Source: Oscillospiraceae bacterium | GTDB lineage: Bacteria; Bacillota; Clostridia; Oscillospirales; Acutalibacteraceae | DNA length: 40,992 nucleotides | Assembly (NCBI GenBank): GCA_015066015.1 | Contig: SVPE01000016.1 | Span: 1 to 40,992, forward strand | Reading direction: 5' to 3' | Shown: positions 12,475 through 13,458 of the stretch, one piece after another | How the letters are laid out: each line of letters opens with the position of its first letter | How positions within the stretch are numbered: position 1 is the stretch's first letter | The notes under the pieces: generated by a model | What the model was told of the DNA's origin: nothing | Seen by the model: the letters and a program-made list of their open reading frames with translations, nothing else | The model's database searches: none | Translations under genes and position numbers: made by a program

Positions 12475-13104
12475 TTAAAGTCCTTTCAGATAAGGGTTGT
12501 TCCCCTTCTCGTAAAAGAGAGTCGTTGCCCCTTCGTGTCCGGGGTAAACCTCGTAATCTGTCTCAAGAGAAATAATTCTGCGAAGGGAGTTTTCCATTTG
12601 CGTTACGCTGGAGGAAGGAAAATCCGTCCTGCCGATACTGTAGCTGAAAAGAGTATCTCCCGAAAACATTAAATCGTCTATAAGATAGCATACGCAACCG
12701 GGAGTGTGGCCCGGTGTGTGCATAACTCTGATTTTATATTCGCCGAAATCAAGCTCATCGCCGTCGGAAACAAGGATATCTGCCTTATCCTTATTCTGCG
12801 GTGTTCCGAAAAAACAGGCCAGTGATTCCCTTTCATCCCACAGACAAGCCTCGTCTGACTTATGAATCACAACCTCACCGCCGAAATTCTGCCGAAGAAG
12901 AGAAAGTCCGAGAATATGATCAAAATGACCGTGAGTCAGAAGAATGTAGCGAAGCTTTTCTATGCCCATATCCTTGAGCATGGCTTCAAGACGACCGCTG
13001 TAGCAGCCCGGGTCAACAACGAGGGCATCACCGCTTTTATCGTCAAGAAGTATATAACAGTTTGCCGCAAATGAAGGCGGAGTGAAAAGTTTGAGTTTAA
13101 GCAT
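12475..13104 (-). CDS. metallo-beta-lactamase-fold hydrolase (glyoxalase-II-like)
   Basis: A 209-aa protein with the zinc-binding LTHGHFDHILG motif (residues 57-67), HTPGHTPG (about 133-140), FSGDTLF, and a C-terminal YPGHEGATT that supplies the last His. This is the hydroxyacylglutathione hydrolase/YqgX branch, which hydrolyses thioesters such as S-lactoyl adducts. A GAGGTGA ribosome site precedes the ATG. It leads hemZ and the kinase gene; the palindromic element begins about 15 bp upstream of its start. Confidence 0.85.
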   Translation of the reverse strand: MLKLKLFTPPSFAANCYILLDDKSGDALVVDPGCYSGRLEAMLKDMGIEKLRYILLTHGHFDHILGLSLLRQNFGGEVVIHKSDEACLWDERESLACFFGTPQNKDKADILVSDGDELDFGEYKIRVMHTPGHTPGCVCYLIDDLMFSGDTLFSYSIGRTDFPSSSVTQMENSLRRIISLETDYEVYPGHEGATTLFYEKGNNPYLKGL

Positions 13105-13118
13105 AAAATCACCTCGTA

Positions 13119-13458
13119 AAATTCACAATGATTAATTGTCAGATTAAGTTCGTCATTCGTACAGTGTGTGAATCAACGGGTACGCGGGGAGGCGGACGCG
13201 CTGCAGGCGCGTCACACAGAGAAAATCCGCCTCCCCGCTCTTTCGCAAGCGGATTTTCTCTGTGCCTTTGGCTTTCCCGAAAGGAAAGCCAAAGCGCCTC
13301 CCCGCCTCATTAGCCTTCATTCCACACTCAACACTTTACAATTGACTCATTTACCGTTACCGGAAAGCTCACGCTGCAGACACTCCCTTTCACAAGAGCG
13401 TTAACTCACCCGCTACCGTATCATGCATTCCGTATTTATTTTGCACAATTGTGAATTT
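13119..13458. repeat. non-coding palindromic element bounded by 11-bp inverted repeats
   Basis: The gap between dtd and the MBL gene has AAATTCACAAT at 13119-13129 and its exact reverse complement at 13448-13458, the latter overlapping the dtd stop codon. Inside is a GC-rich cluster of nested palindromes in otherwise AT-rich intergenic DNA, then about 110 bp (13330-13440) in which I see nothing recognisable. No convincing ORF is present. The layout suggests a small non-autonomous element (MITE- or REP-like). Confidence 0.5.
13184..13305. repeat. four-way-junction palindrome cluster
   Basis: An outer 11-bp stem, GCGGGGAGGCG (13184-13194) with CGCCTCCCCGC (13295-13305), encloses three perfect hairpins packed almost without gaps. 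Hairpin 1 pairs 13195-13201 with 13207-13213 (7 bp). Hairpin 2 pairs 13215-13230 with 13249-13264 (16 bp). Hairpin 3 pairs 13266-13277 with 13283-13294 (12 bp). The left arm can alternatively pair with 13226-13238 over 13 bp, so two folds compete. Confidence 0.75.

Follow-up and report, generated by a model that had tools for sequence, protein, structure and literature searches.

The double-hairpin elements and repetitive hairpin-forming elements of mitochondria belong to organelle genomes, have one or two hairpins and are not known to enclose a four-way junction. BIMEs, a second class, are mosaics of palindromes outside the genes of enterobacteria and bind gyrase or IHF. REPINs have conserved inverted ends and a spacer hairpin kept by compensatory change, and are associated with the single-strand chemistry of RAYT (PMC3116915, PMC8266576, PMC6006769). 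A 'clover' fold is mentioned for REPINs in the legend of Figure S11 of one of these papers (PMC3116915), and BIMEs are mentioned in another (PMC6006769). In plastomes, small stretches bounded by inverted repeats are known to have been flipped in place from one related species to another (PMC6824564). For STAXI, another motif, a single-stranded-DNA role has been weighed, with RNA favored (PMC2864571). A literature search of partial coverage found no description of cloverleaf elements such as those reported here. These elements share with the mitochondrial ones that they are dispersed and defined by hairpin shape, but each of them is an enclosed four-way junction.

The window, which is the whole 40,992-base stretch of DNA that was analyzed, comes from contig C12, part of a 2.38-Mb genome bin that is 91% complete and 3.4% contaminated. 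The features around the element are as follows; the two gene names are those of a preliminary description of this DNA, and the genes are supported by open reading frames and orthologs.

12475..13104, minus strand, MBL-fold hydrolase gene
13119..13129, no strand, left arm of the outer 11-bp inverted repeat, holding the 10-mer AATTCACAAT at 13120
13184-13305, no strand, cloverleaf element, an 11-bp outer stem around three hairpins with gaps of 0-1 nt
13184..13194, no strand, 5' arm of the outer stem, GCGGGGAGGCG
13195..13213, no strand, hairpin 1, 7 bp
13215..13264, no strand, hairpin 2, longest of the arms, 16 bp without a mismatch
13266..13294, no strand, hairpin 3, 12 bp
13295..13305, no strand, 3' arm of the outer stem
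13306..13430, no strand, right-hand companion segment, from DNA search matches
13448..13458, no strand, right arm of the outer 11-bp inverted repeat, ATTGTGAATT at 13448, reaching into the dtd stop codon
13457..13912, minus strand, dtd gene

The layout given in the preliminary description, with hairpins of 7, 16 and 12 bp inside an 11-bp outer stem, is exact, and the outer 11-bp inverted repeat that it reported is real. The G+C contrast that it noted is also present: the G+C content is 0.63 in the element, compared to 0.41 in the immediate flanks and 0.435 in the whole window. Folded as RNA, the element is a cloverleaf on both strands (z -9.6 and -10.3, 0/200 shuffles each), and the plus strand folds into the same cloverleaf with DNA parameters (z -10.9, 0/200 shuffles). 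A sequence-blind cloverleaf descriptor, in which two to six hairpins are allowed, finds a single site in the window, 13184-13305, and none in two shuffles of the window. The whole window has no Rfam match at the gathering score, and a tRNA/tmRNA search of it found none. A 13-bp alternative pairing, proposed earlier as a switch, does exist in the window copy (13184-13196 with 13226-13238), but it reaches at most 8 bp in the other 58 copies described below. The pairing is thus private to the window copy and incidental, not a conserved switch.

The two genes occur in this order in 59 of 80 named relatives, a set that includes some congeners and is not a clean outgroup. Among the syntenic relatives the closest are bins of uncultured Clostridia and Oscillospiraceae, for the most part recovered from the guts of herbivores. 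The preliminary description had suggested looking for empty sites in relatives, and most of these have a short spacer at this place. After correction for unaligned ends, 57 of the 59 syntenic relatives have no more than 60 nt between dtd and the MBL gene, and the other two have 97 and 200 nt, compared to 352 nt in this genome, which indicates an insertion. The window copy thus splits a pair of codirectional genes that is tight elsewhere. No terminator-like site was found between dtd and the window copy, so that this copy may be transcribed.

The element is one of many in its genome. A DNA search gave 42 matches, from which 28 copies were picked for an alignment, A1, the basis of covariance model R1. 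The model gave 105 matches in the genome, on both strands together, which come from 59 different places. As only 150 of 1407 candidates were scored, 59 is a minimum. In A1, 24 of 48 pairs have changes on both sides and 96.1% of cells are paired. Ninety-nine cells carry both-side changes, compared to a shuffle mean of 23, and none of 500 shuffles reached any of five covariation measures. Such tests can be inflated by related copies, and of these measures the pair count and the type count are the robust ones. When the pairing partner is slid by 1-3 columns the signal collapses to far lower values. Both-side changes affect 6 of 8 model pairs in hairpin 1, 10 of 19 in hairpin 2 and 5 of 11 in hairpin 3. 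The outer stem, GCGGGGAGGC, is nearly invariant and has 95.0% of its cells paired in the 28 copies. The preliminary description had pointed to a search for further copies and for compensatory stem changes, and had named, as what would speak against its reading, a single unconserved copy without such compensation and without a transcript; what was found is a set of at least 59 copies with strong compensation.

Directly outside the outer stem the sequence of diverged copies is unique, as judged by eye, so the cloverleaf itself is the repeat unit. The companion segment at 13306-13430 is common to seven other close copies (L002, L003, L004, L006, L009, L015 and L017) and the 10-mer AATTCACAAT is found, on either strand, near 9 of the 59 copies; together they form a mosaic context of the copies. 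One locus, L030 (C25:112279, from about 1501), is a perfect palindrome consisting of the outer stem and hairpin 1, without hairpins 2 and 3. A second dispersed repeat, which starts at about AAAAGGGGTTGT and has inverted repeats of its own, occupies the right flanks of L017, L019 and L022.

When the model of this family was applied to 38 relatives, with up to 90 candidates scored in each, no member was accepted. The R1 matches L062/L063 in G012 were rejected, being by eye tRNA genes followed by a terminator-like hairpin. The single R1 match in G018, however, is a cloverleaf of different sequence, and this genome has a multi-copy cloverleaf family of its own with 44 DNA matches. Thirty loci were fetched, and the descriptor finds a cloverleaf at 15 of the 23 distinct places that they represent; several of the eight without one are partial matches. 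R1 recovered one true copy among 19 G018 loci. Since the model performs poorly there, the families were traced by DNA search together with the descriptor.

Applied to 964,791 bases of 18 congeners, the descriptor gave eight matches, seven of them convincing and all eight with three hairpins. One weak match was found in 763,700 bases from other families of the order, and none in 875,518 bases of the named relatives (some of them congeners), in 50 kb of E. coli or in 3.9 Mb of shuffled DNA of the relatives. The congener and order stretches are not a random draw: in most cases they are the opening 20 kb of a contig with a low number. Most congener stretches hold no match; those that do belong to G001, G003, G004, G010, G016 and G043. 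The counts are lower bounds, since two copies escaped the descriptor: that of G039 at typA, visible in an alignment, and L281 of family I. Two matches were weak and were not counted as convincing: L218, which is AT-rich, in G016, and L422 in G028. The latter, from another family of the order, is a three-hairpin match at L422:12574-12654 within TGTAGGGGCG...CGCCCCTACA, a context that resembles a different intergenic palindrome family. Looser descriptor settings added one four-hairpin and one five-hairpin AT-rich match and a small two-hairpin match, L272. An exact-pattern scan of a genome contig collection, from which the present genome was possibly left out, gave no match. The one match in a scan of viral contigs, L090, has no cloverleaf visible around it and was taken as chance.

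Two families of this shape are shared between congeners. Family I (CGGGGAGCCAAGC) is present in G010, G013, G016 and G039, with matches in 4 of 34 genus genomes, and family II is present in G018, G041 and G003. Further cloverleaf sequences are found in G004, in G043 and at rnfB in G018 and G003. Many of the G018 cloverleafs (L171-L182) are flanked by two extra hairpins, one on each side. By eye, the outer stems of the convincing families have a 5' arm that starts G-rich (GGCGG, GGGG, GAGGTGG) and a 3' arm that ends C-rich. This polarity is never reversed in the families viewed, from which the single G001 element is excepted.

Family I allows the same element to be followed between species. Across three genes, the identity between its four species is 84-86%, and its elements are inherited vertically at eight orthologous sites, each occupied in two or three species. 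In the 16 ortholog pairs the hairpin-1 side is identical at 311 of 335 positions and the hairpin-3 side at 312 of 336 (93%), compared to 1249 of 1836 (68%) in the flanks. Hairpin 2 is identical at 276 of 435 positions, where a chance alignment gives 530 of 879. As hairpin 2 is at chance level and still paired, its arm has been rewritten with the pairing kept. The sequences next to the junction are thus held while the middle arm varies.

The element is inverted relative to the genes at sites A, B, C and D (6 of the 16 pairs) and not at E, F, G and H, in gene frames set by hand from a comparison of orthologous neighbors. Alignment of the region downstream of typA shows one orientation in G010 and G016 and the opposite one in G013 and G039. 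There the element is preceded by the terminator of typA itself and followed by the terminator of the convergent gene. Downstream of rluA, the alignment shows the element of G013 opposite to those of G010 and G016, and in G039 apparently the 3' outer arm alone is left, as a deletion remnant. Instead of having been flipped, an element may at such sites have been replaced by a fresh one inserted in the opposite orientation.

The logic of REPINs fits these observations. The family of the window genome is extragenic, has many copies (59) and is species-specific, with none accepted in the 38 relatives; the spacer hairpin of family I varies with compensatory change between conserved ends; and the proposed action, as for REPINs, is as single-stranded DNA. 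The hallmarks of REPINs, however, fail. Where a REPIN has two inverted REP hairpins, the element has an outer stem that encloses three hairpins, each different, in a four-way junction. In both the window family and family I, hairpins 1 and 3 are, by reading, not inverted copies of each other, and only the outer arms are inverted. The window genome has no RAYT match, and a GT[AG]G foot is rare in it: GTAG immediately precedes the outer stem in 3 of the 59 copies, while GT[AG]G lies no more than 6 nt from the stem on its 5' side in 4 copies and on either side in 5. The element is therefore best described as REPIN-like, with a junction fold, and not as a member of the class. It resembles BIMEs in being a palindromic structure outside genes, but differs in architecture and in the opposite orientations seen at orthologous sites of family I.

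The explanation that we consider rather probable is a dispersed, non-autonomous REPIN/BIME-like DNA element, with a four-way cloverleaf of ~120 bp kept by selection for the fold. The element would act as DNA, either as a folded single strand or as an extruded cruciform. Copies would spread within the genome, settle mostly at gene 3' ends, often beyond terminators, and then be inherited vertically. The shape would be under selection, with junction-adjacent sequence held in each lineage and one arm freer as long as it is paired. By analogy with RAYT/TnpA-REP acting on REPINs, the likeliest partner would be a trans-acting protein that recognizes a single strand or a junction. We infer mobility as the origin of the copies, selection in place of palindrome correction, recognition at the level of DNA and the partner protein. 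The 'non-autonomous mobile element' of the preliminary description accords with the 59 or more copies, the short spacers in relatives and the covariation, but no transposition event was found, which counts against this explanation. The 'protein/DNA recognition hub' of the same description would fit these observations as well.

The elements might, on the other hand, be neutral relics: old insertions without function or mobility, whose hairpins are perfected by template switching and which are flipped by hairpin-associated inversion. Even if nothing were selected, stems could stay perfect through template switching, by which quasi-palindromes are corrected. That family I elements point in opposite directions at some orthologous sites is reminiscent of the small inversions of plastomes (PMC6824564), although the flipped part there is the loop of a stem, whereas in family I it is the folded element. 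The strand symmetry of the mismatches (see below), the remnant outer arm at rluA in G039 and the L030 palindrome also suit relics. They would not account for junction-proximal sequence that is 93% identical between flanks at 68% and around a middle arm at chance level, nor for the three hairpins in every descriptor match above threshold. The orientation of the copies counts against the REPIN/BIME-like reading. The plus strand of the window family lies on the lagging side, as deduced from GC skew, in 43 of 59 copies (p 6e-4), and in 41 of 59 by local skew; in G018 there is no bias (9 to 8 of 17). Frequent neutral inversion would erase such a bias. The inversions were seen in family I and not in the window family. 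That the orientation follows the GC-skew strand, for example on contigs C33, C5 and C25, is unexplained if the elements flip freely. Overall, a relic origin is unlikely, and the stems would probably be kept by selection and not by palindrome correction.

The element probably acts as DNA, not RNA. In the 59 copies, aligned by fitting to the covariance model, 2832 cells comprise 2650 Watson-Crick pairs, 35 G-T, 26 A-C, 61 other mismatches and 60 gaps, so that G-T is not clearly commoner than A-C (p 0.31). Hairpin 2 of family I has 6 G-T and 11 A-C, and the two families pooled have 41 and 37. A tRNA control gave 60 G-T and 0 A-C, a biased figure, since ARAGORN's model favors G-T over A-C. Among 65 gene 3' ends that face an element of the window family at a distance of at least 25 nt, 43 have a terminator-like site between gene and element, compared to 17 of 65 on the opposite strand (p 8e-6), and 22 have no such site. 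The element is not itself an intrinsic terminator: a T-tract follows only 4 of 118 element ends.

A structured RNA, or a 3'-UTR or attenuator, would have the cloverleaf active within an mRNA or as a small RNA. This would suit the stable RNA fold with its covariation, the location at gene 3' ends, and the window copy, which has codirectional genes on both sides and is preceded by no terminator-like site. However, the terminator-like sites before the element, the roughly strand-symmetric mismatches and the opposite orientation at four of the eight family I sites argue that the family does not work as RNA. The rarity of T-tracts and the absence of an Rfam match in the window point the same way, and this reading is very improbable. 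The 'structured RNA' of the preliminary description is thus unsupported for the family.

The placement of the copies is not that of other spacers. Thirty-two of the 59 copies lie between codirectional open reading frames, 22 between convergent and 4 between divergent ones, and one has no right neighbor. The background is small, 33 spacers 60 nt or longer in fetched loci of this genome, and comprises 13 codirectional, 5 convergent and 15 divergent pairs. Divergent pairs are depleted at the copies (4/58 compared to 15/33, p 3e-5), and convergent pairs are in excess (22/58 compared to 5/33, p 0.03).

Particular gene ends recur between families. At four of the eight family I sites, a cloverleaf of the window family adjoins the corresponding gene end; about 0.4 such sites would be expected by a rough estimate from ~118 of ~4400 gene ends. 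Gene-anchored searches, of 30 loci per gene from 34 genomes, used names (typA, rnfB, rluA) that come from reading the protein sequences. The descriptor found a cloverleaf downstream of typA at 8 of 30 loci, to which G039 is added by alignment; in this set the cloverleafs of G018 and G041 are 0.9 kb away, and four loci have less than 400 nt downstream. Cloverleafs were found downstream of rnfB at 6 of 30 loci and of rluA at 5 of 30, one doubtful. The G017 match at rluA looks terminator-like and was not counted as convincing. The three genes were picked for the coincidence, so these counts are biased upwards and suggestive only.

Such placement would be expected of a host topological element, in which extruded junctions, or bound gyrase or nucleoid proteins, act between converging units in the manner of BIMEs and spread is secondary. 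The excess of convergent pairs with few divergent ones, the position downstream of typA, where in four species the element has a terminator on either side, the two being convergent, and the cloverleafs of different families at the same ends of typA, rnfB and rluA, sites chosen for the coincidence, are consistent with this. No binding protein is known, however, the sequence differs between species, and the depletion of divergent spacers is also explicable by selection against promoter damage. A topological role as the primary one is doubtful.

The REPIN/BIME-like reading calls for a partner, and a search for its gene, in clusters of open reading frames beside the copies and in the flanks of RAYT-like genes, found none. 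A search of the window genome, in a bin 91% complete, with the RAYT profile (NF047646) gave no match, and the only trace of a Y1 transposase is a 98-aa IS200 fragment. The profile is matched in 21 of 34 genus genomes, above cut-off in 4, and the presence of a match to it alone says little. The RAYT-like genes L436, L269 and L437 (in G039, G013 and G016, respectively) encode 257-270 aa and score 75-77 bits as REP_Tyr_transpos, compared to an NCBIfam cut-off of 80. Their fetched flanks contain no convincing cloverleaf; two AT-rich matches beside the G039 gene, obtained with looser settings, were judged to be chance. G010, a family I genome, has no RAYT match, and G014, G019 and G042 have one with no cloverleaf detected in small samples. 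Y1 transposases (PF01797, NF047646) were rejected as the partner, as they do not cleanly track the elements.

A conventional DDE transposase would be required if the element were a MITE, in which the outer stem would supply the terminal inverted repeats and the inner hairpins would simply be carried along. The nearly invariant outer stem of the window family is in keeping with this, as are two copies in G004 that have a common outer stem and differ in all three hairpins. Inspection by eye, however, revealed no target duplication in the flanks of the 59 copies, and no repeated family recognizable as a transposase among the top 25 clusters of open reading frames beside them. The constant number of hairpins and their covariation would also be left unexplained, which makes a MITE quite improbable.

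The REPIN/BIME-like element with a selected fold may have wider company. The congener cloverleafs, of the same shape and other sequence, suggest that there is a class of DNA elements, so far little noticed, in which shape is what is conserved. It is possible, though we put it forward only tentatively, that they form a genus-wide superfamily of DNA cloverleafs, conserved by shape with the letters rewritten in each lineage, whose junction would be recognized by a fast co-evolving protein and which would persist at gene 3' ends, even the same gene end, and flip in place.

If the element is what it appears to be, a single genome would offer dozens of natural examples of DNA that forms a four-way junction. 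The compensatory changes, and the flips in a related family, would be evolutionary signs that the fold forms in the cell. REPIN-like mobile DNA would be extended from simple hairpins to a junction, and it becomes testable how a shape stays conserved while its sequence is rewritten between species. For searches of RNA motifs the finding is a warning, because strong covariation does not here mean RNA.
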